From positions 2,170,001 to 2,234,000 of the forward strand of contig NZ_JAVDQF010000001.1 in the NCBI RefSeq assembly GCF_031454135.1: a DNA stretch of 64,000 nt. The letters are read 5' to 3'. The notes under the pieces were generated by a model. It had not been told where the DNA came from. It made no database searches and saw only the letters and a program-made list of their open reading frames with translations. Positions 6,230 through 50,457 of the stretch are shown here, in pieces (the stretch's first letter is position 1; every line of letters begins with the position of its first letter). Origin of the DNA: Arthrobacter russicus (GTDB lineage: Bacteria > Actinomycetota > Actinomycetes > Actinomycetales > Micrococcaceae). The position numbers and the translations under genes were made by a program.

Positions 6230-6291
6230 GCTCGACGGAGCCCAAAGCTCTCCGCTCTCCGCTCCCTTCCATCCCTACCCTCCCCGCCCCA

Positions 6292-6354
6292 GCGCGAGTG
6301 CACAGTTGTTGCGGGTGTTTTCCGAAAACACCCGCAACAACTGTGCACTCGCGC
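6292..6354. repeat. Long perfect intergenic palindrome between convergent genes
   Basis: 30-base arms (6292-6321 and 6325-6354) are perfectly complementary around a 3-base centre (CCG). The arms begin GCGAGTGCACAGTTGTTGCG. The palindrome fills the gap between the phospholipase C stop and the stop of the minus-strand citrate synthase, so it could act as a bidirectional terminator. There is no run of T on the plus side beyond the stem. Its outer CGAGTG..CAGTT pattern recurs in the palindrome at 21087. Confidence 0.9.
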
Positions 6355-6368
6355 GAAATAGTTGCGGG

Positions 6369-7529: not shown

Positions 7530-7540
7530 AAGCTCATGAG

Positions 7541-7573
7541 AACATTGATATTGATTGCCATGTAGTCAATGTT
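7541..7573. promoter_or_regulatory. Candidate operator between the divergent citrate-synthase genes
   Basis: A perfect inverted repeat, AACATTGA (7541-7548) and TCAATGTT (7566-7573), is separated by 17 AT-rich bases that contain further TTGAT words. It lies midway in the 67-base divergent gap and would overlap both promoters. The HTH domain of the neighbouring fusion protein is the obvious candidate ligand (inference). Confidence 0.55.
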
Positions 7574-7596
7574 GATTCGGTCAAGATCGGAACCGG

Positions 7597-8847
7597 ATGG
7601 ATTCGCAACCGAGATTGAGCACTGCCCAGGCGGCATCCCGGCTGGGCATCAAGCCTGCGACCCTGTACGCCTATGTCTCCCGCGGCTTGATTTCGAGCGA
7701 GCCGGCGGTCGACGCATCCGGTTCCACGTTCGATGCTCTGGACGTGGAAGCGCTGGCCCGGTCTCGGAGCAACGCTTCCCGCAGCAGTGGTGTCAAGAGC
7801 GGAGCGCCCCGGCCCGCAACGGCCACCGGTGTGCCTTTGATGGTCCTGGACGCACCCTTCGCCTTGTTGAGCGATGAGGCGCTCTACTACCGGGGCCTGT
7901 CGGCTGATCGACTGGCGCGCGAGTACAGCTTCGAGCAAATCGCTGTCTGGCTGTGGGGAGATGGGCCGGCTCCCAGCGCCGATCCGGTGTTGTTCCGGGC
8001 AACCGCCGCGGGTGCCCGTGCCGCAACGGCGGCCGGTCGATTGCTGGGTCCCGGGGCGCGGGGCATCGATTTCATGCTTCAGGCCTTGCTCTCGGCGGCA
8101 AGCCACGATCCGCTGAAGCGAGATCTCCGTGATCGATCCACGGCAGCCCTGGGCGGTGATCTGATTGCGCAATTGGTGGCGGCCCTCCCGGGCGGACGAA
8201 GTTCCCGGGCCGGCATTGCGGAGTCCCTTTGGCGCAAACTGACCGGGCGGGAGTCCCGGCCCGTCGAGTTGCGATTGGCCACCATGGCGTTGGTGCTTTC
8301 GGTCGATCACGATCTGGCCGCCTCGACGTTTGCGGGCCGGGTCGCCGCCAGTGCCGGAGCCCACCCGTATGCGGCCATGATCAGTGCGTTGGCTGCAGCG
8401 GATTCAAGTCGGCACGGATCTGCCAGCGTCGCTGCTTGGGAGATGTTGTGCGCGGTGCATTCCGGACAGTCTCCGGAACAGGCGATTTCACATGAATTGA
8501 GCCGTGGCAACGGCATTCCCGGATTCGGACACCGAATCTACCGACGCCAAGACCCGCGGGCTAAGGCGTTGCTGACGGCTTTGCAGCAGGCACCCGAATA
8601 CCGGCCGGCGCTGAAGGCTGCCGCGGCTTTGATCGCCGTCGTGCATTCTCGTACGAATTACCCGGCGAACATCGATTTAGCATTGGCGGTTCTGATGCTG
8701 GGTTCCGGCATGCGCGAGGACGCCGGGCAAACGTTGTTCACCGTTGCCCGGAGTGCCGGCTGGTTGGCGCACATCATGGGCGAATATCGGCAGAAACCGC
8801 TGCGTTTGCGGCCGATAGGCGAATACACCGGCCCGATGCCGGCTTAG
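7597..8847 (+). CDS. Helix-turn-helix / citrate-synthase-like fusion protein
   Basis: 416 residues. Residues ~7-30 form a MerR/excisionase-like helix-turn-helix (STAQAASRLGIKPATLYAYV) followed by a wing-like segment. From about residue 80 the rest is a diverged citrate synthase fold. It keeps the His motifs (DHDLAAST, GFGHRIYRRQDPRA), an Asp in NIDLALAV and Arg in ARSAGW, but the segment around the Asp lacks the usual aromatic residues. Such fusions are known as paired genes beside a plain citrate synthase in actinobacteria. I infer either a metabolite-sensing regulator or a subunit partner. It overlaps the end of crgA on the other strand by four bases. Confidence 0.8.
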   Translation: MDSQPRLSTAQAASRLGIKPATLYAYVSRGLISSEPAVDASGSTFDALDVEALARSRSNASRSSGVKSGAPRPATATGVPLMVLDAPFALLSDEALYYRGLSADRLAREYSFEQIAVWLWGDGPAPSADPVLFRATAAGARAATAAGRLLGPGARGIDFMLQALLSAASHDPLKRDLRDRSTAALGGDLIAQLVAALPGGRSSRAGIAESLWRKLTGRESRPVELRLATMALVLSVDHDLAASTFAGRVAASAGAHPYAAMISALAAADSSRHGSASVAAWEMLCAVHSGQSPEQAISHELSRGNGIPGFGHRIYRRQDPRAKALLTALQQAPEYRPALKAAAALIAVVHSRTNYPANIDLALAVLMLGSGMREDAGQTLFTVARSAGWLAHIMGEYRQKPLRLRPIGEYTGPMPA

Positions 8848-9284: not shown

Positions 9285-10127
9285 TTGGGCACCTCCAGGA
9301 GCAGCCAATCGGCTGACGTGGGCATGGACGAACTGATTTCGTCTGCCCAGAAACGGGATCGCTCGAATCGTTCCGGCACCCGGAAGACCCGACCCAAAAA
9401 AGGCGTGTTCCGCACCATCGTGCAGGTTTTCGGCGAGCTCCTGATCACGGTCGGCGTGGTGCTGATGCTGTTCGTGGGCTGGGAGTTGTGGTGGACTAAT
9501 ATCCAGGCCGATCAAACCCAGCAGGCCGCGGTGCAGGAATTCGCCAAGGGCTTCCAAGGGCCGGTCACCCCGCAGGATCCAGGGAAAACCGACTACGGCG
9601 AGCCGGTAGTGGCGCAAGCGCCGAGCACCGCCGGCGAAACACTCGGCTTGGTTTACATTCCCCGGTTCGGTGCCGACTACAAGCCGCGTCCGGTGGTGCA
9701 GGGCACGGCGTTGCGCGAACTGAACACTTTGGGCTTGGGGCATTACACCTCTACCGCGATGCCGGGAGCCGTGGGCAACTTCGCCGTGGCCGGGCACCGG
9801 CAGACCAACGGCGCCACTTTGGACGCGATCCACACCCTGGTGCCGGGCGACCGCATTTATGTGCAAACCGCGGACGGTTACTACACCTACGTGTACCGCA
9901 ACAATGAGATCGTGCTGCCGAATCAGACCAATGTGCTCGCCGCGGTGCCGACCCAAGCCGGGGCGCCGCCGAACGGAAGGTACATGACCCTGACCAGTTG
10001 CAACCCGCGCTTCGGTTCGGCCGAACGCTTCATCGCCTACGCGGTAATGGAGTCCTGGCAGCCGATCAGTGCCGGCCCGCCGCAGGAGATCGCGCAACAG
10101 GTCCAAGCAACCGTCGGGAAGGGCTGA
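9285..10127 (+). CDS. Class E sortase
   Basis: 280 residues. A cytoplasmic N-terminus, one membrane helix (about 53-70, LLITVGVVLMLFVGW) and an extracellular sortase domain. Catalytic residues are visible: His in NFAVAGHRQT, Cys in MTLTSCNPRFG and Arg in SAERFIAY. Class E enzymes of actinobacteria attach LAxTG-bearing proteins to the cell wall; the giant surface protein at 24716-29110 ends with LANTG and is a plausible substrate. The start is a TTG at 9285 preceded by AGGAG with 5-base spacing. The internal ATG at 9324 lacks this spacing. It heads a run sortase - small membrane protein - amidotransferase with near-zero gaps. Confidence 0.93.
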   Translation: MGTSRSSQSADVGMDELISSAQKRDRSNRSGTRKTRPKKGVFRTIVQVFGELLITVGVVLMLFVGWELWWTNIQADQTQQAAVQEFAKGFQGPVTPQDPGKTDYGEPVVAQAPSTAGETLGLVYIPRFGADYKPRPVVQGTALRELNTLGLGHYTSTAMPGAVGNFAVAGHRQTNGATLDAIHTLVPGDRIYVQTADGYYTYVYRNNEIVLPNQTNVLAAVPTQAGAPPNGRYMTLTSCNPRFGSAERFIAYAVMESWQPISAGPPQEIAQQVQATVGKG

Positions 10128-17727: not shown

Positions 17728-19328
<1,601 letters not shown>

Positions 19329-19330
19329 GG

Positions 19331-19816
19331 CTACGGCCTCAATTCGATGACCGTCTTACCGATCCGGACCGGGACACCGAGTTCCACCGGCAGTGCGCGG
19401 GTGAGTTGCTGGTCAGCGAGATACGTCCCATTGGTCGAGCCGAGGTCTTCGATGAACCAGCGGCTGCCCTGCGGGAAGAGCCGGGCATGCCGTCCGGAGG
19501 CGTAGTCGTCCTCCAGTACCAGGGTGGATTCCTGGGCCCGGCCGAGCAGGATCGGCGTACCGTCGAGGTCGATGACGCGACCGCTCAACGGACCCTCGAC
19601 CACGATGAGTTGCCGGGCGTGCTGCCGCGCGGGGGACTCGTCGACCAACTCCGGGTGCTTGCGCGCCTGCCTGGCGGTCGGCGTTCCGGTGCGGACCTTG
19701 CGGCCGATCACCAGATCCCGCCGCATCGCGGTGACGATGCTGAAAATCAGCACCCACAGGAGCAGCAGGAAGCCGAATCGGAGCACGGTCAGGGTCAGCC
19801 CGTTCAGGTCCAGCAT
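19331..19816 (-). CDS. fhaB: FHA-domain protein FhaB (FipA)
   Basis: 161 residues. A membrane helix at the N-terminus (about 10-30), a linker containing the Thr-rich segment GTPTARQARK that is a kinase target region in the family, then an FHA domain (about 70-158) with LGRAQES, SGRHARL and DLGSTNGTYL. FHA domains bind phosphothreonine, so this protein reads PknA/PknB signals at the division site. The stop/start relation to fhaA is a one-base overlap. Confidence 0.93.
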   Translation of the reverse strand: MLDLNGLTLTVLRFGFLLLLWVLIFSIVTAMRRDLVIGRKVRTGTPTARQARKHPELVDESPARQHARQLIVVEGPLSGRVIDLDGTPILLGRAQESTLVLEDDYASGRHARLFPQGSRWFIEDLGSTNGTYLADQQLTRALPVELGVPVRIGKTVIELRP

Positions 19817-20631
19817 CAGCGGCCGCTTCCCGGGCGCGAGCCGGTTTTCGCAGGCAACAGCCGGAAGGTCATCTTGGTGCGCCCGATGGTGAGCACATCG
19901 CCGTCGCGCAGGGCAAGGCTGCCGTTGATCCGGGAGCCGTTCAGGAAACTTCCATTGGTCGAGCCGAGGTCGACTGCAGTGCCTTGGCCGTCGTCGAGCC
20001 GGATTTCCAAGTGCTTCCGGGATACCCCGGTGTCGTCGACCAGGATGTCGGCTTCCGAGGAGCGGCCCAGGGTGATCGATGAGGCATTGAGCGAGTAGCG
20101 CTGGCCATCGATGTCCAGCACCGGTTGCAGGGCCACCGCCGGCCGCACCGGGCCGGCGGATTCGGGTGCCGCGCTCCTGGGCGCCGGCTGGGCCGGCCGG
20201 GGGGCGCGGGGTGGTTGCATCGCCGGATAGGCCGGTTGCGCTTGTTGCGCCTGGCCGTTGCTCTTCTCGGTATTCGAGAGCACCTGGAATTCGCCGGACT
20301 TGTTTTCCACGGTCTGGGTGAAGGAGACCTTGACCGGCCCCTGCAAGGTGTATCCCTGGGAGCGGGCGTGCCGGATCGCGACATCGCAGAGCTCTTCGGC
20401 TAGCGCGGTTCCCCAGCTCCGGGCACGCTCGAAATCAGGGCCGCTGAGCCGGACGTCGTAGACGTTCGGGGCGAGCGTCCGCCCTGCGGCCATGGTCATA
20501 GCTTTGTCGTCCATTTCGCGACGCAGCCGACTGGCGATCTCCACCGGCTGGACTTGCGATTTGGACCCGCGGGCGAAAGCGCCGCGGACGGCCTTCTCCA
20601 AGCCTCGCTCAACATTGTCGAGTAGTCCCAC
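19816..20631 (-). CDS. fhaA: FHA-domain protein FhaA with N-terminal DUF3662 domain
   Basis: 271 residues. The N-terminal DUF3662 domain (about 1-125) begins GLLDNVERGLEKAVRGAF and contains VQPVEIASRL. A short Pro/Ala/Gln linker and a C-terminal FHA domain (about 175-260, LGRSSEAD, SRKHLE, DLGSTNGSFLNG) follow. It is much shorter than mycobacterial FhaA (long disordered middle). It is the first gene of the seven-gene operon. I choose GTG 20631 because AGGAGG lies 5 bases ahead, rather than the GTG at 20637 that touches the ribosome site. Confidence 0.93.
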   Translation of the reverse strand: MGLLDNVERGLEKAVRGAFARGSKSQVQPVEIASRLRREMDDKAMTMAAGRTLAPNVYDVRLSGPDFERARSWGTALAEELCDVAIRHARSQGYTLQGPVKVSFTQTVENKSGEFQVLSNTEKSNGQAQQAQPAYPAMQPPRAPRPAQPAPRSAAPESAGPVRPAVALQPVLDIDGQRYSLNASSITLGRSSEADILVDDTGVSRKHLEIRLDDGQGTAVDLGSTNGSFLNGSRINGSLALRDGDVLTIGRTKMTFRLLPAKTGSRPGSGR

Positions 20632-37628: not shown

Positions 37629-39059
37629 TCAGGAGACGGCGAGCGTGAAGCTGCCGATGCTGCCGTAGTCGCTGTAGCCGTCGACCTGGGGATCGCCTTG
37701 GCCGACGCCGTCGATGGTCAGGTAATAGGTGCCGGGGGCCAGCGTCCCGCTGAGCTTGGCGTCGATTCCGGCGGCGGTGCTGCTCGCCGCTTTGGTGGCC
37801 ACCGGGTTGTTGGAGTCGAGCTGGGTGCCGTTGGCATCCAGCAGGCTCAGCTTGATGTCCAGATTGGCGCCCACCGCGGGCGGGGTCGCGGCGAAGGTGT
37901 AAGCTCCGGAAGCGCTGACCACCACCTTGTAGTAAGCCACGTCGGTCCTGCTCAGGATGGTTCCGTTGTAGCTGCTGCCTTTGGCCATCACGCTGGCGGA
38001 GGCGGTGCTGGTGCCGTGATTGGCCGGGATGTAGGACAGGCCGTGCCCGGCGATCACCGAAAGGTCGTCTTCCCTGTTGTTGGCGTCTTTGTAGTCGCCG
38101 TTGCTCCACTGGGACAGTGGTTTCCCGTAAGCGGCGCCCATGATCGGGGCCCAGATCCCCTGCCCGCGGGAATACGACCGCTGGCTGTCGCCGTCATGGC
38201 TCAAGCCGAGGTTGTGCCCGACCTCATGGGTGGCCGCTTCGGCGATATTGCTCGCGACATTGCTGAGGTTGCTGCTGAAGACCCAGGCCGGCTGGTTCTG
38301 GCCGTTGTTGGCACTGTTGAAGGTCCCCACATAGGCCACGCCGCCCACGCCGGGGCGGACGTCGGTGGTCGGCGTGATGACCACGTGCGAGCCGTAGACG
38401 TTGTCGCTTGCCGAGCTGCGGTTCAGCGCGGCGTCACCGGGGTCCGCGGTGGTGACGTCCACGTCGAAGACCGCGTAGTCCTCGGAAACCCGCTGCCAGG
38501 ACTCGATGATGGCCTTGCGTTCACTGTCGCTGAAGCTGCTCGGATCGCCGTCGGTGTCGAAGGGCTTGGCGTCATAGCTCGGGTGGCTGCTGTCGTTCCA
38601 CGCGGTTCCGGTGATCACGGCACCGTCGAAGTCGAGGAAAATCGTTTTCGTGGAACCCGGCCGGGAATGCAGTGCGAAGGCGTCGGCCGGGGCCGGGGCC
38701 GGGGCCGCCGCGCTGCCGGCGGCCGGAGCCGGGCGTTCGGCCGCGGAATCCGCCTTCTGCTGCGGGGTCAGGCTCGGTTCGACGAAGAACGGCGATCCTT
38801 GGCGGTCGATCCACAGGCCATTGTCGCCGCGGAGCAGATTCTTGAGCCGATCGACGCTCAAGCCGGATTTGGCCGAGGCGATGTTGAGCAGGCCGGGGCC
38901 TTTGGCCAGCGCGTCCTGGCCGGTGACTGCGTCCGGGCCGGCGGAGGAGCCGGTGACCGGTGCTGCATTGGCCAGTGGCACGTTGGCGATAGGAGCGAGG
39001 AGGAGGCCGATTGCCGAGGCGAGTACCGTGCCGGGCAGGATGAAGCTGCGCAATTTCAT
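37629..39059 (-). CDS. Secreted zinc metalloprotease with C-terminal pre-peptidase (PPC) domain
   Basis: 476 residues. Signal peptide to about residue 32 (ANA). A propeptide-like region rich in Ala/Pro follows, then a metzincin-type catalytic domain with HEVGHNLGLSHD (HExxHxxGxxHD zinc site) and a likely Met-turn APIMGAAY, and a C-terminal PPC beta domain (~375-476). PPC domains are often removed after secretion. No sorting signal, so it is released. It is an isolated gene with a 114-base gap to tgt upstream. Confidence 0.9.
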   Translation of the reverse strand: MKLRSFILPGTVLASAIGLLLAPIANVPLANAAPVTGSSAGPDAVTGQDALAKGPGLLNIASAKSGLSVDRLKNLLRGDNGLWIDRQGSPFFVEPSLTPQQKADSAAERPAPAAGSAAAPAPAPADAFALHSRPGSTKTIFLDFDGAVITGTAWNDSSHPSYDAKPFDTDGDPSSFSDSERKAIIESWQRVSEDYAVFDVDVTTADPGDAALNRSSASDNVYGSHVVITPTTDVRPGVGGVAYVGTFNSANNGQNQPAWVFSSNLSNVASNIAEAATHEVGHNLGLSHDGDSQRSYSRGQGIWAPIMGAAYGKPLSQWSNGDYKDANNREDDLSVIAGHGLSYIPANHGTSTASASVMAKGSSYNGTILSRTDVAYYKVVVSASGAYTFAATPPAVGANLDIKLSLLDANGTQLDSNNPVATKAASSTAAGIDAKLSGTLAPGTYYLTIDGVGQGDPQVDGYSDYGSIGSFTLAVS

Positions 39060-40560: not shown

Positions 40561-40583
40561 GAGGGGCGGGCTCCGAAAAGTGT

Positions 40584-40608
40584 TAATGCGAATGAGAATC
40601 ATTAATGA
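40584..40608 (+). promoter_or_regulatory. Zur/Fur-type operator upstream of the zinc ABC operon
   Basis: AATGAGAATCATT at 40591-40603 is an inverted repeat (AATGA-GAA-TCATT) 46 bases before the binding-protein start. It shares the 11-base word TGAGAATCATT with the palindrome at 44944. The sequence resembles actinobacterial Zur boxes (TGAnAATCATTnTCA) in its left and central part; the right half is weaker. No Zur gene is in the window. Confidence 0.65.
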
Positions 40609-40648
40609 TTAGACTGTGCAAGTCGCCTACTTCGGAAAGCTCTGCCAG

Positions 40649-42217
40649 ATGCCCCGTTCATTCCCCGCCTCGCCTGCTCCCGGCCGGGCCATTGGCGCAG
40701 CGCTCGCTGTCCTGCTGCTGCTCTCTGGCTGCTCGGCCACCAGTACCTTCGACGCCGGCGATCACCGGCTCAAGGTGGTGGCCAGCACCGGGATCATCGC
40801 CGACTTGGCGAAAAACGTTGCCGGGAACCGGGCCGAAGTGCTGCCGCTGGTTCCCGAAGGAGCTGATCCGCACAGCTATGAGCCGACTTTGCGCGATGTC
40901 CGGAACATCGCGTACGCGGATGTCGCCTTCACCAACCACCTGCTGCTCGAAGAACACAACCTGATCAAATCGCTGGATGCCAATCTCCGCCCGGGAACCC
41001 CGAATATTTCCTTGGCCGAAGCGAGTGAAAAGTACGGGGCGCACATCATGCCGCTGCTGGAGAATCTGACCCTGGATACGATTTGGCTGGGTTTGCGGGT
41101 GCGCGGCGCCGGCACCGGGCTGGGCGCCGACCGGAACTCCGATGTGCTGCTCAGCGCGGTCTCGGTGGACGGTCCCGGAGCGTTGCTGGCCTACGGCACG
41201 GAGACCTTCGGCAAAACCGAGCTGTACTTCGACTCGACTGACGGGGTGTCGCCGGAGAAGGACCGGACTACGCTCCCGCCGGATGCGCACACGCATTTGA
41301 GCTGGGCCTTCACCGCACCGGGCATTTACCGGCTCACCGTCCAAGCGGACCTGAAAACCGCTGCCGGCACGCAGCGAATCGGCGAGCAGACTTTCAGCTT
41401 CGCGGTAGGCGTCAATCCGGCCGAGGCCGGCCCCGGGAAAAAGGTCCTGGGCAGCGGGCATGCCGATGTCACCGCTGATCTGGACCGCAAGGAACTGTAC
41501 CTCTACGCGGATCCGGAGGGCTCCGGAGATTACACGCAAAGCGAGTTCGACGCCGGCAATACCGTGATCGAAGTGCCCAACAAAGCGCTGCACGAAGTTC
41601 CGGCCGGGCCGGGTTACCGGTTCCTCGGTAGTTCCGGCGCCCAGGTCTACCAACTGCCGCAAGCGGTCCTGGGTAAGCACGTGCATGGCGAAATCGACCC
41701 GCATCTCTGGCAGGACGTCCGCAATGCCAAGGCCTATCTCGGCGTGATCAAGGACGCCTTGATCGCTGCGGACCCGGCCGGCCGGGAGGATTACACGCGC
41801 AATGCGCAGGATTATTCGGTCCAGCTCGACGAACTGGACCGTTATGTGGAAGCCAAGATCGATTCGATTCCGGAGGCAAACCGGCAGCTGATCACCACGC
41901 ACGACGCCTTCGGCTATTTCGCCGACCGGTACCGGCTCAAAGTCGCGGGTTTCGTGACCCCGAACCCGGCCACCGAGCCCAGTGTCCAGGAACGCCAGAA
42001 GCTGACCCAGACGATCCAGAATCTGCAGGTTCCCGCGGTCTTCCTGGAGCCGAATCTGCGGACCCGCTCCGCAACGCTGACCCAGCTGGCCGCCGAGCTG
42101 GGGATCAACGTCTGCAGCATCTACGGCGACAGCTTCGACCAGCAGGTCAGCACGTACCTGCAGATGATGCGGGCCAATGCCGATTCGCTCGCCAATTGCC
42201 TGAACCCGAGGCACTGA
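40649..42217 (+). CDS. Anchored-repeat ABC transporter substrate-binding lipoprotein, zinc type, with inserted surface module
   Basis: 522 residues. Lipobox LSGC with acylated Cys28. A cluster 9 (ZnuA/MntA-like) binding fold is split by an insert. First lobe: VVASTGIIADLAKNV and DPHSYEPT (ligand His75). Second part: EIDPHLWQD (His352), ITTHDAFGYFA (His418) and YGDSFD (Asp494). His at 418 rather than Glu points to zinc, not manganese. Residues ~143-342 are the insert: a 'C-half' with DAHTHLSWAFTAPGIY (His214, His216), then an 'N-half' with SGHADV. This is the reverse order of the module in the neighbouring surface proteins. The ATG at 40649 starts the signal peptide; GTG 40616 lacks a ribosome site. 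First gene of the locus. The family is recognised in databases as the anchored-repeat transporter; zinc is my inference. Confidence 0.88.
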   Translation: MPRSFPASPAPGRAIGAALAVLLLLSGCSATSTFDAGDHRLKVVASTGIIADLAKNVAGNRAEVLPLVPEGADPHSYEPTLRDVRNIAYADVAFTNHLLLEEHNLIKSLDANLRPGTPNISLAEASEKYGAHIMPLLENLTLDTIWLGLRVRGAGTGLGADRNSDVLLSAVSVDGPGALLAYGTETFGKTELYFDSTDGVSPEKDRTTLPPDAHTHLSWAFTAPGIYRLTVQADLKTAAGTQRIGEQTFSFAVGVNPAEAGPGKKVLGSGHADVTADLDRKELYLYADPEGSGDYTQSEFDAGNTVIEVPNKALHEVPAGPGYRFLGSSGAQVYQLPQAVLGKHVHGEIDPHLWQDVRNAKAYLGVIKDALIAADPAGREDYTRNAQDYSVQLDELDRYVEAKIDSIPEANRQLITTHDAFGYFADRYRLKVAGFVTPNPATEPSVQERQKLTQTIQNLQVPAVFLEPNLRTRSATLTQLAAELGINVCSIYGDSFDQQVSTYLQMMRANADSLANCLNPRH

Positions 42218-42275
42218 CCCCGCGGGTCGGAATCCCGGCCCGCCGATACCCGTCCGCAACCTAGAAAGCTGTCCC

Positions 42276-43232
42276 ATGAAACTGCTCGCCCTCCTCCTCG
42301 CCGGGAGTCTGGCCCTCGCCCCGTTCGCCACCGGCCGGTCCGGCTCGATTCCTTCGATCCGTCCGGCCGGGGACCTCGACCAGACCATTTCTGCCCAGGA
42401 GCCGGCGGTCGCCGGGCGCGCGGTGATCGAGCAGGGCCATGTCGACATCGGTCCGCGCTTCGACGGCACGGCTGCGGGCCAGGGCGGAACCGGGAATTGG
42501 CTCATTCAAATCCATGATTCTTCCGGGCCGCAGCCGGTGTGGCGGAACCTGCCCGACGTCGTGCTCAAAGTGGCGGATGCCGCGAAGCAGGTGGTCCCGG
42601 ACGATCCGAGCTATGCCTTCCTGGGCGCGACGCCGGGCAGTGAGGTCTATGTGGTGCCGCAGACCCAGCAGCAGGGCGTGGTCTGGGCCGGTTGGAATAC
42701 CCAGGACCCGCAGGTGATCACCGCGATCAAGCGCCAGGCCCGGTTGAGCCTGACCGGAGTGCAGGGTCCAGGCACGGTGATGATGTATCTGCAAAGCGGA
42801 AATCTGGGCCAACCGCAAGTGCTCTGGGATTCGCGCAGAACCGGCCAGCAGGACGTGTTCATGGATGCGAACGCGCACACCCATGCCAACTGGGTGTTCA
42901 GCACCCCGGGCATCTATTTCTTGTCCGTGGAGTTCACTGCCGAGCTCACCGACGGGAGCACCGCATCGAGCAAGCAGGTGCTCCGTTTCGCAGTAGGCTC
43001 GGCCACGGACCCGGAGCCGGGGTTCGCCCAGCTGGCTCTGGCGAGTAGCCCGGCTGCCGTGCCGGCCGGGTCGGCAGATCCGGCCGGCGGCCAGTTGCTG
43101 TGGGCCGCCGGCGGGGTGCTCCTGGCGCTGTTGCTTGCCGGGCTGCTCATCGGCTTGCTGCGCTCGATCGTTTCCAGCCGGCGGGCCAAATCCGAGGTGG
43201 AAGCCGTTGCGAAGCTGGGGCAGCAACGATGA
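42276..43232 (+). CDS. Membrane-anchored single-module surface protein (choice-of-anchor M / actinobacterial wall repeat type)
   Basis: 318 residues. Signal peptide (about 1-20), one module (about 48-245) opening with EQGHVDIG (His55) and closing with DANAHTHANWVFSTPGIY (His201, His203), with FLG...GSEVYVVPQTQQQG..W.GW in the middle. C-terminal helix ~273-297 and a basic tail keep it in the membrane; no LAxTG motif. It lies between the binding protein and the ATPase gene and overlaps the latter by ATGA. I infer that it captures metal at the membrane surface and hands it to the binding protein. Confidence 0.82.
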   Translation: MKLLALLLAGSLALAPFATGRSGSIPSIRPAGDLDQTISAQEPAVAGRAVIEQGHVDIGPRFDGTAAGQGGTGNWLIQIHDSSGPQPVWRNLPDVVLKVADAAKQVVPDDPSYAFLGATPGSEVYVVPQTQQQGVVWAGWNTQDPQVITAIKRQARLSLTGVQGPGTVMMYLQSGNLGQPQVLWDSRRTGQQDVFMDANAHTHANWVFSTPGIYFLSVEFTAELTDGSTASSKQVLRFAVGSATDPEPGFAQLALASSPAAVPAGSADPAGGQLLWAAGGVLLALLLAGLLIGLLRSIVSSRRAKSEVEAVAKLGQQR

Positions 43233-44032
43233 ACCGGCGGTCCGGAGCGGGGACTCCGGTGGATGAGGTCTTGGCGATCCGCGGCCTGCACGTGGAGTTG
43301 GCCGGCCGCAGGGTCGTCGACGGGGTGGATCTGCGCGTCGCCGCCGGTGAAATGGTGGGCCTGCTCGGCCCGAACGGCGCCGGCAAAACTACGATGCTCC
43401 GGGCGGTGCTCGGCCTGCTCAAGCGGTCCGGTTCGGTGGCGGTCTCCGGGCGGCCGATCGGCAAGGCCCGGGATCTGGTCGGATATGTGCCGCAGCGGCA
43501 CGAGTTTTCCTGGGACTTCCCGATCAGCATTGAAAACGCCGTGATGACTGGTCGGGTGGCCAGAATCGGTTGGTTCCGCCGCCCGGGGGTCACGGATTTC
43601 CGGGCGGTGCACGAGGCGATCGACAGGGTCCGGCTGGCCGATTTGGCCAAGCGGCCGGTCGGCGAGCTCTCCGGTGGGCAGCGCCAGCGGGTGTTGGTCG
43701 CCCGGGCGCTGGCGCTCAATCCCGAGCTGCTGCTCCTGGATGAGCCGTTCACCGGGTTGGACGTGCCGACCCAGGAGCTGCTCACCGGGCTGTTCGCCGA
43801 GTTGGCGGCAGAGGGCCGGGCCATTGTGATGACCACGCACGATCTCTACAGCGCGGCCCTGGAATGCAGCAGGCTCTGCCTCCTGGACCGGCGGATTCTG
43901 ATCGACGGCGAGCCGGCCGAGGTTTTGAACTCGGTGCATTGGCGCCGGCTGTTCGGCGCGAGAGTGCTGCTTCCCGGCGTTGCCGCGGATGTGGCGGCAA
44001 GCCCGGCCGGCGATCCGCGGGGGATCGCATGA
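43229..44032 (+). CDS. Zinc/manganese-type ABC transporter ATP-binding protein
   Basis: 267 residues. Walker A GPNGAGKTT, Q-loop region GYVPQRHEFSWDFPI, signature LSGGQRQR, Walker B LLLLDEP and the switch His in TTHDL. The Q-loop PQR followed by a Trp/Phe-rich stretch is typical of cluster 9 metal ATPases. The ATG overlaps the preceding stop, and its own stop overlaps the permease start, so the three are translated together. Confidence 0.95.
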   Translation: MNRRSGAGTPVDEVLAIRGLHVELAGRRVVDGVDLRVAAGEMVGLLGPNGAGKTTMLRAVLGLLKRSGSVAVSGRPIGKARDLVGYVPQRHEFSWDFPISIENAVMTGRVARIGWFRRPGVTDFRAVHEAIDRVRLADLAKRPVGELSGGQRQRVLVARALALNPELLLLDEPFTGLDVPTQELLTGLFAELAAEGRAIVMTTHDLYSAALECSRLCLLDRRILIDGEPAEVLNSVHWRRLFGARVLLPGVAADVAASPAGDPRGIA

Positions 44033-45006
44033 GTCCGCTGGATTTCCTCAATGACCTGGGCAACCCCACGCTCAGCTTCTTGCCCAAGGCCTTGCTGGTC
44101 TCCTTGTTCTCCTCGGTGATCTGCGGGGTGATCGGTTCCTTCGTGGTGCTGCGCGGCATGGCGTTCATCGGCGACGCGGTATCCCACGCGGTCTTCCCGG
44201 GCCTTGCCGTGGCTTTCGTGCTGCAAGGGAATCTGATGCTCGGCGGAGCCGCTGCCGGTGTGCTCACCGCGGTCCTGGTGGCGCTCTTTTCGCAGAACCG
44301 ACGACTCAAGGAGGACAGTCTGATCGGCGTGATTTTCGCCGCGGCTTTCGCGCTGGGCATCATCGTGATCTCGCGGGCTCCGGGCTACGCCGGCTCGTTG
44401 GAGTCGTTCCTGTTCGGTTCGATCACCGGCATCCCGGCCGAGGACGTCTGGACCGTCGGCATCGGCGGCGCGGTGCTGCTGTTGATCGTCGCGGTGTTCT
44501 ACAAGGAATTCGTCGCGGTGAGCGTGGACCGGGAGATGGCCAGGTCCGTGGGCCTGCCGGTGCTCTGGCTCGACATGGCGCTTTACGTCCTGGTGACGAT
44601 CGCCGTCGTGCTTTCCTTGCAGACGATCGGGAACATCCTGGTGCTGGCTTTGTTGATCACCCCGGCGGCGGCGGCCCGGCTGCTGACTGACCGGATGGGC
44701 CTGATGATGCTGATCGCCCCGTTGATCGGCGCGGCTTCGGCATTGATCGGGTTGTACATCTCCTGGAGCTTGGACCTCCCGGTGGGCGGCACGATCGTGT
44801 TGGTGGCCACCTCGCTGTTCGTCCTGGCTTGGCTGTTCGCACCGAAGCACGGCCTCTTGGGCCGGCTGACTGCGACGAAGAAAGTCCCGGAATCCGGCGG
44901 CGGAGGCCCCGCCTTTGACATTGCACTGGATCTGAACCAGGATGAGGTTGTTGAGAATCATTCTCAACAACCTCGCAACTCCGACGCTAGAAAGAGCGCA
45001 TTGTGA
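44029..45006 (+). CDS. Metal ABC transporter permease (ZnuB/MntB type)
   Basis: 325 residues with about eight to nine membrane helices. Family segments: GVIGSFVVLRGMAFIGDAVSHAVFPGLAVAF, FLFGSITGI and LQTIGNILVLALLITPAAAARLL. The C-terminal ~45 residues are polar and poorly conserved, and their codons contain the perfect 31-base Zur-type palindrome at 44944-44974. The last bases overlap the GTG of the next gene (GTGA). Confidence 0.93.
   Translation: MSPLDFLNDLGNPTLSFLPKALLVSLFSSVICGVIGSFVVLRGMAFIGDAVSHAVFPGLAVAFVLQGNLMLGGAAAGVLTAVLVALFSQNRRLKEDSLIGVIFAAAFALGIIVISRAPGYAGSLESFLFGSITGIPAEDVWTVGIGGAVLLLIVAVFYKEFVAVSVDREMARSVGLPVLWLDMALYVLVTIAVVLSLQTIGNILVLALLITPAAAARLLTDRMGLMMLIAPLIGAASALIGLYISWSLDLPVGGTIVLVATSLFVLAWLFAPKHGLLGRLTATKKVPESGGGGPAFDIALDLNQDEVVENHSQQPRNSDARKSAL
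44944..44974 (+). promoter_or_regulatory. Zur-type palindrome inside the 3' end of the permease gene
   Basis: 15-base perfect arms around a single central base (44959). The core TGAGAATCATTCTCA (44952-44966) matches the actinobacterial Zur-box pattern TGAnAATCATTnTCA at every defined position. It lies 29 bases before the GTG of the secreted module protein and could control a second, internal promoter for that gene and the giant surface protein. Confidence 0.78.
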
Positions 45007-45680
45007 CTATCAGCAAAACCTTTGAATCCGCCACACCCAGCAAGCAGAAGTTCTTCCGGACCGGTTTGGCCAGCACCGTCTTCGCCGGCATCGCGGCACT
45101 GAGCCTGGCGGTCGGCGCACCGGCCCAGGCGGCCACCGCCGTGATCTCCGAAGGACACATCGACATCGCCCGGGCGTCGATCAGCGCCAACGGCAAGAAC
45201 CTGGTCCTGGGCACCAACGACGAGTTCCACGGGAACTATTACACCGCGGCACAGGTCGGCGACGTCGAGTTCGACGTCAGCAAGAAGGAAGGCGGCAACT
45301 GGATCATCCCGGCCACGCAAACCGGCAACGAGCTGTTCACCGGGTTCGCTGGTTCCGGCAACGAAGCCCCCGGTGAAGCGTCCGGAGAGCAGGGCCTGTA
45401 CAACAAACTGTCGGCTGGCGACCATGTGAAGTTCACGGTCGTCCCGGCGGCCGGCAACCCGGGCACGGTGCGCCTGGACTTTCCGGCCAGCACCGGCGTC
45501 GTGACCTCGGGCAACAGCTACACCGCGGCGCTCAAAGCCAATGAGGACGAAGCGTTCCATGCGCACCCGAAGTGGACCTTCAGCGCCAAAGGCACCTACC
45601 TGGTGACCATTTCGGCAAGCAACCCGGAGAACAAGGTCGGTGCTTCCAGCCCGATCACCGTGAAGTTCGTCACCAAGTAA
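45003..45680 (+). CDS. Secreted single-module protein of the zinc locus (no anchor)
   Basis: 225 residues. Signal peptide cleaved near AQA-A (43). One compact module opens SEGHIDIA (His52) and closes DEAFHAHPKWTFSAKGTYLV (His186, His188). Unlike its neighbours it has no C-terminal helix or sorting motif, so it should be released or held by other proteins. The GTG start at 45003 overlaps the permease stop and follows GAAAGAG. The Zur-type palindrome lies just upstream. I infer a soluble metal-capturing (zincophore-like) role. Confidence 0.8.
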   Translation: MTISKTFESATPSKQKFFRTGLASTVFAGIAALSLAVGAPAQAATAVISEGHIDIARASISANGKNLVLGTNDEFHGNYYTAAQVGDVEFDVSKKEGGNWIIPATQTGNELFTGFAGSGNEAPGEASGEQGLYNKLSAGDHVKFTVVPAAGNPGTVRLDFPASTGVVTSGNSYTAALKANEDEAFHAHPKWTFSAKGTYLVTISASNPENKVGASSPITVKFVTK

Positions 45681-45694
45681 TCAGCCCTCCATGC

Positions 45695-45731
45695 GGTTGC
45701 GGGGCCGGACCTGCCGTCCGGCCCCGCAACC
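45695..45731 (+). terminator. Strong GC hairpin between the two distal zinc-locus genes
   Basis: 16-bp perfect arms (GGTTGCGGGGCCGGAC, 45695-45710; complement 45716-45731) with a 5-base loop in the 81-base gap after the secreted module gene. No T tract follows, so it could be a partial terminator or an mRNA 3'-end stabiliser favouring the secreted protein over the giant one. Confidence 0.65.
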
Positions 45732-45761
45732 GGCCCGTTCACCGACGTCGGAAAGCATCCC

Positions 45762-48700
45762 GTGAAAATCCGCTCTGCTCTGCTCGCATCCCTGCTCCTG
45801 ATCGGAGCGGCCGTTGTCCCCGGGCAACTGGCGGCTGCCGTATCGGCTCGGGCAGACAGCCCGCCGCCCACGGTGATCGACTCCGGCTACGCCCAGATCG
45901 CACCACTGGCCAAGGCCTTCGACGGCAATCCGGGGCGGGTCGAGTCGTTCCGGGCCGGGATCGCGCTCACCCAAGGGGCCTGGTCCGACGCCGATGGCGG
46001 CAAGGATTTCAGCAAGCAGACCTTCATTCCGGCGGAACAGGCGATTTTGCACCTGGCCGCCGCGGACCGGCTGCCGCAGGGCGGATTCGGCACTCCGGCC
46101 ACCGAAAACTACCTCGCCGCCGGAACAGTGCTCGGTTCCGCGGAGACCGGCTCGGAATACTCCGGTTCCGGCCGGTTGTTGATCGGCGCGGGCACCTTGG
46201 TGAGCAGAGGAGCCGGGAAGCCGTCCTCCGAGCTCAATGCGCGCGGGGAAAGCACCCGGGATTTCACCGGCACCAATGCGGCAAACGTGTTCGCGCTGCT
46301 CGAAGCGAGCACGCCGGCCGGCGGCAAGGCCGTGCTGACCGGGAAAGGGGCCACTGGCCCGGTTTCATTGGACAGTTCGTTGCTGAACGGGTCGGCACCG
46401 GGCGGCTCCGAGCCGGCCCTGTTCGGCGTCACCTCATCGCTCAGCACCGAATTCACCGTGCCGGGACGGTACTGCTTGACCATCAGCCAAGCGCTGAAGA
46501 CCAAACAGGGCGGGATGCTGACCGCCTCGGGCCGGTACACGGTTTACGTGGGGGACTTGCCCGCCAAGCCGCTCAGTTGCGCCACCGGAAACCCCGACCC
46601 CGGAAACCCTGACCCGGGAAACCCTGACCCGGGAGACCCGGCTAAACCGGCCACCGTCGTGCGTGCCGGTCACCTCGACGTGCGGGCACCGTTGAGCGGC
46701 GACGGGAAGTCGTTGCAGTTGCAGATCGCGAATTCGCAGCAACGCGTGCCGTTCCAAGACCTGGTGCTGACCGGCGTCCGTTCCGGCAGCGTCCCGACTC
46801 CGGACCCCGGCCGGGACTTCAGCGTGGTCGGCGCACCGGGCAGCAAGTACTGGTATTTCGGCCAGGGCGAACCGGATCCCGAGCACTACGTTTGGCCCGG
46901 CTTCAGCGGCGAGGATTTCTCGCCGTCGGACTTGGCCTTCGGATTCCAGGACGCTACCTTGACCGAGGTCTCCGGCCCGGCCGGCGGAAACTTCGCGATG
47001 TTCTACGATGATGCGGTCGCCGACCGGCTGCGTCCGGATGCGGTCTATTTCGATACCCGGCAGGGCATGCCGCAGAGCCTGCCGATCGCTGCCGCCAGCC
47101 ACAAGCACTTCACCTGGAGCTTCACGCAACCCGGGAAATATTGCCTCGCGTTCCAGGCCAAGGCCCTGCGCTCGGCCGGCGACTGGGTCCGGGATAGTGC
47201 GCAGTTGACCATTTGGGTGGGTGATCCGGGCCAGGCCGCGGCGCAGGTCCCGTGCGATCGGGTCGGCGGCACGGCCGGGCTCAGCCTGCTCTCCCATGAC
47301 CGGGCTGCACCGAACCAGGCGCCGGTGGGCCCGGTACTGCGCTCCGGGATGCTCCGCCTGGAACCCACCGTCGACGTGAAAAGCGGTGGCTTGAATGCCC
47401 GGTACCAGGCTGCCAGCAATCTCCCGGCCCGGGATGCTGCGCCGGGCGAACTCGTGGTTTCCGCCACTTTGTACTCCGGCGGGAAATACCTGATCGACGC
47501 CAATGACAGCGAATCGTCGCCGGCCCTGGTATTCGATTCGGGTCGGATCGCCCCGGGTGCGCTCAGTGGCCTCCTGACCGTGTCCTTCGGCCAGGTCCAG
47601 GGTCCTGGCACCGTCCAACTGCTCAACGGCAGCAGCGCACTGCTTTCCAGCAATCCCGCCGATTCGCTCGGCCAAACCCTGTTTGCCGGGCAAAGCCGGG
47701 CTGATGGCTGGCGTTGGTCCTTCGACCAGCCCGGCGTCTACTGCGTGCCCTTGACCATCGACGCGCAACCGCTGGGCAGCGTGCAGCCGGTGCGATCCAG
47801 CAGCATGCTGACCTTCGCCGTCGGCTCGGAGACTCCCGGAACACCCGGGTACCTGGACCGCTCGGCGATCAAACCGTGTGCCGACGGCGGCTCCGCCAGC
47901 AAGCCGGGCGACGTCGCCAAACCCGGAAAGCAACCCGGCGGCGCTGACCGGCCGACCGGCGTGAGCGTGCTCGCCGAAGGGCACATCGACTTGGCCAGCC
48001 GCTTGGGCGCGCATGGTTTGCGCACCGAAATCAAGGACTCCTCGCAAGGCCAAGTGGTCTACCGGGATCCGGCCAAAACCGTGTTGCAGGCGAAGAACCC
48101 GGCCAAGCGGACCATCCGGGGCGGTTCCAGCTTCGGCTTCCTCGGCGCACCGGGTTCCGAGGTCTATGTTCTGGGGCAGACCCAGGAGCCGGGTCTGCTC
48201 TGGCCCGGCTGGTCCACCGAGGAGGTCCCGCAGCTCGGCGCCATCGATTGGACCTTGACCCGGCTCGGCACCGTGGGCGCGGGGCCAGCGCCCGGTGATT
48301 TCGCGATGTACCAGTTGGGCGAATTGGCGCAACCGGAAATCAAATTCAACTCCGCCGCCGGAATCAACCGGTTCACGATCCCGGCCGGTGTGCACCAACA
48401 CGGTTCCTGGGTGTTCTCCGCGCCCGGGGTCTATTGCACCGCGTTCCAGCGCAGCGCGGCCGACGGTCAGAGCAGCGATTTCACGGTGGCCTGGGTGGTC
48501 GGCGAGGAGGTCGACCCGGGCACGGTCGATCCGGCGAGGTGCTTCGACGGGGAACAGGTGCATGGGTTGCCCGACCAGATCAAAAGCGCGGCCGAGGCGC
48601 CGGGCCACGTTCCTACCGGTAATCGGACGGCTCCGGCTCCGGTCTGCCCGGTGCCCGGCGCAGGCTCATCCACCGGACCGGCGCCCGGATCCGCCGTGCT

Positions 48701-49469
48701 CGACCAAGGGCACGTGGACTTCGCTTCCCGGCTGGTGGACGGCAAGTTCCGTTCGCAGATCAAGGACGGCACCACTGGTGCGGTGACCTGGCACGAGCCG
48801 GGCAGTACCGTGATCAAGGTCAAGCCGGAAGCGGCGATTTCGGCCCCGGGCGGAGCCTTCGGATTCCTGGGTCCGGCCGGAACTACGGTGTACCAGATTC
48901 CGCAGACCCAGCGCCCGGGGCTGGTCTGGCTGGGTTGGAATACCGAATCGCTGGCTCCGCAGGAGGTCTCCGGCCCGGTCGACTGGTCGCTGGACGCGGT
49001 CTCCGGCCCGGGCCAGGTGCACGTTTTCGAACTCAGCGCCTTCGGGTCGCCGATCCCCGTGCTCGACGCCGGAGGTTCCTATCGGATCCCGCTCAATACG
49101 CACGCGCACGGGAACTGGTCGTTCAGCGCTCCGGGGCTTTACCGGTTGACCATGACGCAGCGCGCGGTCTTGGCGTCCGGGCAGAGCGTCAGCGACACCC
49201 AGGTGCTCACGGTGCAGGTAGGCGAGCCGACTCCGGCCGCAGACGCCGGCGCTGCGCCGTGCGCTGCAGCAGTGCCGGCTGCCGCCGCGTCGCCGGTGCC
49301 GGCAGACGGAGCGCCGGGCAGCGGGATGAATGCTGCGGCCTTGCCCGTCGACGGCGCCTCCGGTGCCGGGTGGCCGGCTTGGGTCTGGGGCTTGATCATG
49401 GGCGGGGTGCTGCTGCTCGGCACCGGGCTGGGCACCGGCGGAGCGTTCTGGGTGTTGCGCAAACGATAG
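45762..49469 (+). CDS. Giant multi-module surface protein of the zinc locus
   Basis: 1,235 residues. Signal peptide (to about 32, ARA), five modules, four linkers and a C-terminal membrane helix (WVWGLIMGGVLLLGTGLG) with a short RKR tail. Modules 2, 4 and 5 carry the full His set: GHLD (46668) with HKH (47100); GHID (47979) with HQH (48393); GHVD (48708) with HAH (49101). Modules 1 and 3 keep the fold-like PGRYC/PGVYC ends but lack both the GHxD and HxH histidines. The linker after module 1 is a GNPDP repeat. Each Cys of PGxYC faces another Cys about 40 residues on, probably disulfides. GTG start at 45762 with GGAAAG six bases ahead. Last gene of the locus. Confidence 0.85.
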   Translation: MKIRSALLASLLLIGAAVVPGQLAAAVSARADSPPPTVIDSGYAQIAPLAKAFDGNPGRVESFRAGIALTQGAWSDADGGKDFSKQTFIPAEQAILHLAAADRLPQGGFGTPATENYLAAGTVLGSAETGSEYSGSGRLLIGAGTLVSRGAGKPSSELNARGESTRDFTGTNAANVFALLEASTPAGGKAVLTGKGATGPVSLDSSLLNGSAPGGSEPALFGVTSSLSTEFTVPGRYCLTISQALKTKQGGMLTASGRYTVYVGDLPAKPLSCATGNPDPGNPDPGNPDPGDPAKPATVVRAGHLDVRAPLSGDGKSLQLQIANSQQRVPFQDLVLTGVRSGSVPTPDPGRDFSVVGAPGSKYWYFGQGEPDPEHYVWPGFSGEDFSPSDLAFGFQDATLTEVSGPAGGNFAMFYDDAVADRLRPDAVYFDTRQGMPQSLPIAAASHKHFTWSFTQPGKYCLAFQAKALRSAGDWVRDSAQLTIWVGDPGQAAAQVPCDRVGGTAGLSLLSHDRAAPNQAPVGPVLRSGMLRLEPTVDVKSGGLNARYQAASNLPARDAAPGELVVSATLYSGGKYLIDANDSESSPALVFDSGRIAPGALSGLLTVSFGQVQGPGTVQLLNGSSALLSSNPADSLGQTLFAGQSRADGWRWSFDQPGVYCVPLTIDAQPLGSVQPVRSSSMLTFAVGSETPGTPGYLDRSAIKPCADGGSASKPGDVAKPGKQPGGADRPTGVSVLAEGHIDLASRLGAHGLRTEIKDSSQGQVVYRDPAKTVLQAKNPAKRTIRGGSSFGFLGAPGSEVYVLGQTQEPGLLWPGWSTEEVPQLGAIDWTLTRLGTVGAGPAPGDFAMYQLGELAQPEIKFNSAAGINRFTIPAGVHQHGSWVFSAPGVYCTAFQRSAADGQSSDFTVAWVVGEEVDPGTVDPARCFDGEQVHGLPDQIKSAAEAPGHVPTGNRTAPAPVCPVPGAGSSTGPAPGSAVLDQGHVDFASRLVDGKFRSQIKDGTTGAVTWHEPGSTVIKVKPEAAISAPGGAFGFLGPAGTTVYQIPQTQRPGLVWLGWNTESLAPQEVSGPVDWSLDAVSGPGQVHVFELSAFGSPIPVLDAGGSYRIPLNTHAHGNWSFSAPGLYRLTMTQRAVLASGQSVSDTQVLTVQVGEPTPAADAGAAPCAAAVPAAAASPVPADGAPGSGMNAAALPVDGASGAGWPAWVWGLIMGGVLLLGTGLGTGGAFWVLRKR

Positions 49470-49503: not shown

Positions 49504-49522
49504 TCAAAAGGGGGGGTGCGCG

Positions 49523-50457
49523 GTGGGCCGGTTCGGTGACTTTTTCCGGATGGGACCGTACCGGGCGGACCACTTCCCCGCGCTGCGGGCCGCCGTCGGA
49601 ATCGCCGTGCCCTTGCTGGTCCTGCTGATTCTGGACCGGCCCGACTTGTCCCTGTACGCGGTATTCGGCGCATTTTCCGGAGTCTACGGCCGGATGTCGG
49701 GCTACCGCGAGCGGCTTTTCCAACAGAGCCAAGCAGCGTTGATCATGTTGGCCACCGTATTCGTGGCGCTTTGGCTGGGCCGGCTGGCTCCGGGGCCTTG
49801 GACCTTGGTGCTGTTGACCGCGCTCGCCGCAGCGGCGGCGACGGTGCTCGCCACCTTGCTCCGATTCGGCCCAGTCGGCGGGTTCTTCGCGATCTTCGCC
49901 TTCGCGGCGATCAGCCACAGCCCGGGGACCGTCCCTGGCAGACGGCCGCGGCAGTTCGGCCGATCGATGGGCGCCACCTGGGCATGCAAGCGCTGCGCTA
50001 TCTACTGGCGGTGGCATTGGCCGGCGCGGTCTCGACCCTGTTGGGGCTGGGGCACAGCTACTGGGCGATGGTCAGCGCCGCAGTCGTGATGATGGGCGCG
50101 GACCGTTGGGGGCGCATGGTCCGCGGTGTGCACCGGGTGGTCGGCACTTTCGGCGGCCTGCTGATTTTCTGGGCCCTGTCGCAGTTCCAGATGCAACCCT
50201 GGCAAGTATTGCTGCTCCTTGTGGCGCTGCAATTCATGGCGGAATTCCTGATCGTGCGGCAATACGGATTGGCGATGCTCTTCATCACGCCGTTGGCCTT
50301 GACCATGATGAATCTGGTGCCGGGGGCAACCCCGGGCAGTCTGATCACCGATCGTGCCTTGGAGACTCTGCTCGGCGTGCTGGCCGGCTTGCTGGTGGCC
50401 TGGTCGATCCACGAGCCGACCCTGCGCCGGTTGAAAAACCAAGTCCAACGGAACTGA
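49523..50457 (+). pseudogene. FUSC-family membrane protein gene broken by a single-base frameshift
   Basis: A GTG at 49523 behind AAAAGGGGGGG starts an N-terminal half with three or four hydrophobic helices (up to AIFAFAAISHSPGTV). From about 49985 the homologous C-terminal half (MQALRYLLAVALAGAVSTLLG to the stop at 50457) is in the next frame. The span is 935 bases, one short of a multiple of three, so one missing base between about 49930 and 49984 explains it. Restored, it would be ~311 residues, a half-size fusaric acid resistance-like (FUSC) exporter. It could be a real mutation, a sequencing error or, less likely, programmed frameshifting. Confidence 0.75.

Follow-up and report, generated by a model that had tools for sequence, protein, structure and literature searches.

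A circularly permuted module inside the binding protein of a predicted Zur-controlled zinc importer of Arthrobacter russicus

Corynebacterium diphtheriae carries a group of genes, dip0438-0444, that is repressed by zinc and de-repressed in the absence of Zur, and three of these genes bear the family titles of the anchored-repeat ATP-binding cassette (ABC) transporters (PMC6711530). A second zinc-repressed promoter lies inside dip0441, the permease gene (PMC6711530). In the later description of the system as znuAECB-znuFG, an HxD/HxH motif was recognised, thermal shifts gave evidence of zinc binding by ZnuE, ZnuF and ZnuG, ZnuE was found to be critical and its His residues to be required, and ZnuA was seen to carry the motif in reverse order (PMC12445094). 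A counterpart of this system is found in Arthrobacter russicus (assembly GCF_031454135.1), in the 64,000-nucleotide stretch analysed here (the window; contig NZ_JAVDQF010000001.1, positions 2,170,001 to 2,234,000). Its substrate-binding lipoprotein contains a copy of the module that forms the surface and secreted proteins encoded beside it, and this copy is circularly permuted.

Related arrangements are known elsewhere. The NCBIfam anchored-repeat family comprises TIGR03769-TIGR03773 and NF038134; the TIGRFAM entry reportedly remarks on a substrate relay. In the AztABCD system of Paracoccus denitrificans the donor AztD is a beta-propeller and the loop of AztC is short; deletion of this D-loop is reported to abolish the receipt of zinc from AztD. 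Streptococcal Pht with AdcAII, and AdcA/ZinT, are surface zinc proteins with repeated His motifs. AdcA also has an extra zinc domain, and Pht differs by its HxxHxH motifs. Pht-type proteins have been proposed to feed a zinc substrate-binding protein (PMC12445094).

To compare the modules, a profile was built on 396 full-length modules from outside binding proteins and searched against six-frame translations. The first sample was drawn from 433 relatives of the binding protein in genome contigs, collected with the peptide patterns HTH[LMV][SN]WAF or PQAV[LI]GKH, of which the best 80 were kept. The 82 sources read here are the window and loci L027, L028 and L030-L108; L029, from a Renibacterium metagenome-assembled genome, was omitted as a near copy, and the pairs L067/L068 and L100/L101 are duplicates. 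Both patterns occur in 39 of the 82 binding proteins, the first only in 29 and the second only in 14.

All 82 binding proteins show the permuted order, in which profile positions 45-79 to 167-187 come first and positions 1-5 to 75 follow. The residues that join the old ends of the module number 4-27 (9-11 in 57 of the 82), and the spacer from the new exit to HVHG is 4 residues long in every case. The H, D, H and H of the module are all kept (82/82). The same order can be read in the TIGR03772 profile itself, where the second half of the ZnuE-like module aligns with positions 123-229 and the first half of module 5 of the giant surface protein with 229-306. A FastTree tree was made of 48 permuted modules and 251 others; one change is enough to account for the permuted modules on it, which indicates a single origin.

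Structure models have the same elements in permuted order. In the AlphaFold model of the ZnuE-like module (predicted local distance difference test, pLDDT, 93.3; predicted template modelling score, pTM, 0.90), strands at 14-16, 19-27, 40-47, 53-56, 60-64 and 69-71 are followed by a helix at 76-81, a strand at 88-92 and a later set of strands from 101-106 through 194-205. In the model of the binding protein, read by eye, the second strand set comes first (145-152 to 240-253) and the first set second (265-267 to 332-336), with a helix at 321-326 in the first-set part.

The TIGR03772 profile was used to draw a second sample, which comprised 84 binding proteins and left out the window. The permuted order and both motifs were present in 83 of them; the remaining one, L177, is unreadable owing to a split reading frame. 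Between profile position 75 and the DPH motif, the printed distance is 10 residues in 79 of the 83 readable proteins. Two of the other four end at profile position 74 (distance 11), and two print 55 and 81, where an insertion interrupts the first half and the last fragment of that half gives 10. Once hit ends are allowed for, the distance is thus 10 residues in 83 of 83. As a separate observation, one of the 84 proteins has GRSIHGEIDPA in place of the GxHVHGExDPH, or a close variant, of the others; with DPA for DPH it seems to be without ligand 2.

Longer tblastn spans had raised the idea of two modules per binding protein. This was rejected when the frames of 19 loci were printed: 17 were binding proteins with one module each, so that the long match had run into the adjacent gene, and 2 were neighbouring ZnuE-like frames.

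The position of the insert can be compared with AztC. PF01297 aligns with the binding protein over profile positions 1-82 and 92-263, with the insert in between. In the alignment with AztC (5w56), chain residue 109 is where the second block starts, and the histidine of DPH follows six residues later. This histidine is His138 of AztC by our own numbering, and the block start then corresponds to the end of the D-loop (residues 117-133). The insert therefore stands at the acceptor loop, beside ligand H352; its upstream border is placed less exactly against the D-loop. Thus the loop position of AztC is occupied in the Arthrobacter protein by a copy of the partner module.

Such an insert might be a structural spacer, left by one domain-shuffling accident and without a function of its own. 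The single origin on the first-sample tree is what this would predict. It is unlikely, since two samples show hardly any variation in the site residues or in the distance to the ligand loop. A docking role is a stronger competitor: the insert of the binding protein would only dock to ZnuE or the permease and move no metal, and the wall and secreted modules would form a zinc store or buffer. This is a real possibility, if short of probable. A pure docking domain would need no zinc site, yet the module of the binding protein keeps its four site residues in 82 of 82 first-sample proteins and both motifs in 83 of 84 second-sample ones, and elsewhere 20 of 251 modules have lost theirs.

No description of a circular permutation in the anchored-repeat family was found in the literature searched, a search that left subscription papers and database pages outside and in which the words came up once, in a listed paper on Liberibacter ABC transporters (PMC3688454) that could not be tied to the family. 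The strings 'permut', 'insert' and 'relay' occur 0 times in PMC12445094. As far as these searches show, the permutation is apparently undescribed before. What looks new here is the permuted module copy at the D-loop position of AztC; zinc, Zur control and the gene layout were already known. The module inside the binding protein was absent from the original prediction, an account of this DNA made from its letters.

The surface and secreted proteins provide the setting in which the insert can be judged. A survey gave 402 full modules outside binding proteins, or 251 after reduction at 80% identity. H, D, H and H are complete in 231 of the 251; all three His are gone in 19, of which 9 keep the Asp, and 1 module has one His. 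The first His of GHxD and the first His of HxH are never found apart. The columns that track the His most closely are W82 and G84 (r 0.71-0.76), together with the Asp of the motif (0.67-0.73), and W82 and G84 are positioned just beyond the permutation point. Very probably, HxD and HxH of each intact module form one zinc site. Counting each His-less module as an independent loss was rejected, because a tree built without the motif columns gives only 4 changes, 3 of them on well-supported branches.

The giant protein had been described as having five modules. Only modules 2, 4 and 5 carry GHxD and HxH, and modules 1 and 3 are degenerate and His-less. Its cysteines fall at 238/273, 461/498, 661/706 and 892/927, positions that suggest one disulfide per module in modules 1-4. 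The linker between modules 1 and 2 (46587-46640) contains GNPDP repeats; there are fewer of them in L029, whose giant protein has 1,230 residues. The largest number of full modules among the 82 sources is eight, in a surface protein of Microbacterium marinilacus (L055, open reading frame of 2555 residues), whose modules 1, 2 and 4 are His-less.

The last 60 residues of the giant protein contain no LPxTG-like motif and end in a hydrophobic stretch followed by RKR. Among the 78 multi-module frames that the 82 sources contain, with the window and duplicate loci counted, 49 have such a motif. Three sortase-domain matches were found in the genome. One sortase domain (98 bits) is encoded in the window itself, at 9654-10049, although the giant protein is without a sortase motif. 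At E 0.01, no AztD models are among the matches of the ZnuE-like, secreted and giant proteins, so that their sequences give no sign of membership in the AztD family.

The six genes of the cluster are all present at about the coordinates first proposed (Table 1). Four of the proteins exceed the curated cut-offs of TIGR03770-03773, and the locus therefore belongs to the anchored-repeat family with its binding protein (705 bits against 350.45 in the profile scan), ATPase, permease and wall protein (495.5 against 190.3). The choice_anch_M model (NF038134, cut-off 55) is matched by the binding protein (93.7 bits), the ZnuE-like protein (188.9) and the giant protein (377.5). The secreted protein at 45003-45680 differs from the family in falling below this cut-off (46.5 bits); both GHxD and HxHxxW are there, and it is regarded as module-like without being filed as a choice_anch_M member.

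Table 1. Features of the predicted zinc-uptake cluster, in window coordinates.
Feature	Coordinates	Strand	Details
Zinc-uptake cluster	40649-49469	+	six open reading frames
Zur-type palindrome 1, imperfect	40583..40605	.	44 bases before ATG 40649; position weight matrix (PWM) 26.6 bits
Substrate-binding lipoprotein, ZnuA-like (TIGR03772)	40649..42217	+	ligands H75, H352, H418, D494 (numbered from ATG 40649)
Binding protein: module second half, first in chain	41066..41413	+	profile 76-184, contains HTH 214-216; hidden Markov model (HMM) 2.2e-22
Binding protein: module first half, second in chain	41435..41665	+	profile 1-75, contains GHAD 270-273; HMM 3.7e-11; ends 4 residues before HVHG
ZnuE-like membrane-anchored protein, one module	42276..43232	+	GHVD 54, HTHANW 201; choice_anch_M 188.9 bits
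ABC ATPase (TIGR03771)	43229..44032	+	320.9 bits, cut-off 268.8
ABC permease (TIGR03770)	44029..45006	+	431.8 bits, cut-off 296.8
Zur-type palindrome 2	44948..44970	.	in 3' end of permease gene, before secreted-module gene; PWM 31.8 bits
Secreted one-module protein, divergent, position of ZnuF	45003..45680	+	GHID 51, HAHPKW 186; choice_anch_M 46.5 bits
Giant module protein, 1,235 residues (TIGR03773), position of ZnuG	45762..49469	+	495.5 bits; hydrophobic C-terminus
Giant module 1, His-less, approximate limits	45864..46559	+	only tail fragment recognised; no GHxD or HxH
Giant module 2	46650..47234	+	GHLD 303, HKHFTW 447; HMM 4.5e-36
Giant module 3, His-less, approximate limits	47319..47840	+	HMM 2.1e-11, second half only; no motif
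Giant module 4	47958..48518	+	GHID 740, HQHGSW 878; HMM 3.8e-54
Giant module 5	48687..49238	+	GHVD 983, HAHGNW 1114; HMM 7.5e-68

The likeness to dip0438-0443 rests on gene order, promoter positions, motifs and shared NCBIfam names. As in C. diphtheriae, the genes run A-E-C-B-F-G, one Zur-type site precedes the binding-protein gene and a second stands at the end of the permease gene, and HxD/HxH modules are found in E, F and G, with HxH ahead of HxD in the counterpart of ZnuA. There are differences as well. The ZnuF counterpart has one module here and two there; the giant protein has five modules, three of them site-bearing, whereas ZnuG has one motif; and the giant protein, being without an LPxTG-like motif, does not share the sortase signal of ZnuG. 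Across the 82 loci, the ZnuE-like gene is directly 3' of the binding-protein gene in 80, and a protein with at least two full modules is encoded in 72. At E 1e-60, TIGR03772 was found in 3 of 396 genomes sampled from the phylum, 27 of 394 from the class and 61 of 396 from the order, with the Arthrobacter genome itself counted each time. By sequence and by analogy, the cluster is predicted to be a Zur-controlled zinc importer of the already known anchored-repeat or C. diphtheriae Znu kind.

Zinc as the cargo is suggested by the binding protein. PF01297 matches it with 236 bits, and the His/His/His/Asp ligand set proposed for it was recovered, the four residues being invariant in 44 of 44 aligned binding proteins; domain and ligands together place it among the zinc-binding proteins of cluster A-I (cluster 9). 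We take an H/H/H/D-or-E set to be the rule for zinc proteins of cluster A-I, with His at the third position pointing to zinc.

Some comparisons favour another transition metal, Mn or Fe, with the palindromes belonging to another regulator of the Fur family. By sequence, the solved structure that matches the binding protein best belongs to a manganese protein, and several of the further matches are to Mn or Fe proteins; by fold, Mn and Fe proteins tie with AztC. Fur boxes also resemble Zur boxes. The third-position His (44 of 44), on the ligand rule that we assume, argues against such a cargo, as does the high score of published Zur sites on the family matrix. The C. diphtheriae counterpart, moreover, is controlled by zinc and Zur (PMC6711530). 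A manganese or iron cargo is accordingly very improbable. Zinc cargo and Zur control, as first proposed for this DNA, are thus supported by its sequence, and in C. diphtheriae they have been established by experiment (PMC6711530, PMC12445094); the accompanying remark that the substrate of the family was unassigned is out of date, zinc being in print for that species (PMC6711530, PMC12445094).

The two proposed Zur-type sites were scored with a matrix trained on 40 sites from related loci, excluding the window. They rank first (44948) and second (40583) in the 64-kb window, and the third match reaches 18.1 bits. In simulated sequence, about 0.19 sites per 64 kb would be expected to exceed 14 bits. 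Site 2 contains an exact TTGAGAATCATTCTCAA at 44951-44967; when up to 3 mismatches are allowed, the expected number in the window is 0.07. The pattern used to gather the training sites, TGANAATNATTNTCA, was picked with site 2 already known. Site 1 is unmatched by TGANAATNATTNTCA at up to 2 mismatches; its rank is therefore more independent and its palindrome poorer. Over the central 21 columns of the matrix, the window sites reach 29.4 and 24.3 bits, and two Zur sites published for C. glutamicum reach 31.1 and 27.0.

L029 keeps both sites: at site 1 the block TTAATGCGAATGAGAATCATTA is intact though the bases immediately before it have changed, and at site 2 the centre base is the only difference. 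An Arthrobacter-type locus, L080, has the same pair of site positions. Of 80 loci, the window being one, 36 contain the palindrome at up to one mismatch (49 sites in 1.65 Mb), and these 36 are not independent since close relatives share sites; 40 permuted palindromes used as a control gave a mean of 0.375 per 80 loci and a maximum of 9.

In the Arthrobacter genome, the pattern has 53 matches when up to 2 mismatches are allowed; reversed, it has 7. The palindrome recurs with 0-1 mismatch at ten places. The window accounts for one of them, and nine lie in eight neighbourhoods, which were read by eye; only a P-type ATPase resembles a Zur target already known, and L008 and L012 seem to be duplicates of each other. 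The ATPase is presumably a P-type metal ATPase (L026, 2431-4470) with a His-rich start, and a Zur-type palindrome (2378-2400, 25.9 bits) stands just before it. A Zur-controlled cation-efflux protein, CztA, is known in C. diphtheriae (PMC6711530). In L006, two Zur-type palindromes (1501-1515 and 1706-1720), 205 bases apart, lie between divergent genes, one for a small secreted-looking protein and the other for a secreted-looking protein with long Ala-rich repeats. L004 has an exact palindrome TGATAATCATTATCA at 1501-1515, about 0.5 kb before a nuclease-like frame, which we assume to resemble an S1/P1-type nuclease, a zinc enzyme. L024 carries a Fur-family (Zur-like) gene (4472-4903) convergent with a second znu-type transporter (5489-8265), and its Zur-type matches are weak, the best being 14.9 bits at 8220.

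Two further genes lie near the zinc cluster. A gene at about 49520-50457, which we take to encode a FUSC-like membrane protein, is split over two reading frames in the window; in L029 it is intact, as one open frame of 342 residues at 18855-19883. At 37629-39059 on the minus strand, a secreted-looking protein contains HEVGHNLGLSHD, presumably a motif of the zinc-metalloprotease type.

The whole is probably a Zur-repressed anchored-repeat importer in which modules gather zinc and the ZnuE-like protein passes it to the permuted module of the binding protein. When zinc is scarce, Zur would leave two promoters. The first would give the binding protein, the ZnuE-like protein, the ATPase and the permease; from the second, which lies within the last part of the permease gene, the secreted and giant proteins would be made. 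Intact modules would be beta-rich domains, each with an HxD and HxH zinc site. Module proteins in the wall and released from the cell would gather or buffer zinc, and the membrane-anchored ZnuE-like module would hand it to the binding protein. The binding protein would take it through its own permuted module, placed where AztC has a flexible, donor-contacting loop. From there zinc would move into the H/H/H/D cleft and on through the permease. Family, cargo and control rest here on sequence and analogy, and we infer the transfer from module to module and the final step into the cleft. The permutation, its position, the fixed spacer and, on one tree, the single origin are direct observations.

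Several points weigh against this account. Single deletion of znuF or znuG leaves growth unaffected in a znu+ strain, and deletion of znuA has a modest effect (PMC12445094). ZnuE(3xA) still responds to zinc in thermal shifts, and the result for ZnuG(3xA) is unclear (PMC12445094). The first-sample patterns themselves hold HTHxxWAF or PQAVxGKH, so that the constancy of HxH and of the spacer is partly a product of selection. The TIGR03772 profile includes the permuted insert, and forms without it may have been missed in the second sample. On the tree, the joint loss of three His comes down to just 4 changes, too few for significance. The Zur-type palindrome was not seen at up to one mismatch in 44 of the 80 loci.

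The C. diphtheriae deletions bear on the details too. Loss of the whole znuF-445 operon causes a longer lag only (PMC12445094), and the dispensable znuF and znuG, taken with the mild loss of znuA, fit poorly with a strict linear relay through the binding protein. The graded chain of the original prediction, from released protein to giant protein to membrane to transporter, finds no support in these knock-outs or in a giant protein with two modules lacking a site. The same deletions lend weight to a store or buffer: znuF and znuG, dispensable in znu+ cells, inhibit growth when the transporter is missing, and sequestration or storage is among the possibilities suggested by the authors (PMC12445094).

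If zinc does pass through the permuted module, its origin can be sketched tentatively. Once, in an ancestor of the family, the zinc-accepting loop of the binding protein might have been replaced by a permuted copy of the donors' module. This would have produced a binding protein with two sites, and zinc might then pass from the wall to ZnuE, to the insert of the binding protein and into the cleft.

It is not settled how, in Gram-positive bacteria, metal passes from surface zinc proteins to an ABC importer. The 2025 C. diphtheriae work leaves unexplained what ZnuF and ZnuG do, why the motif of ZnuA is reversed and why the znuA phenotype is weak (PMC12445094). A permuted partner module at the acceptor loop is a concrete element that can be mutated, and it makes a hand-off from module to module testable. 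The insertion also offers a clean evolutionary case of a circularly permuted domain, with one origin (on one tree) and present in every readable binding protein of both samples.

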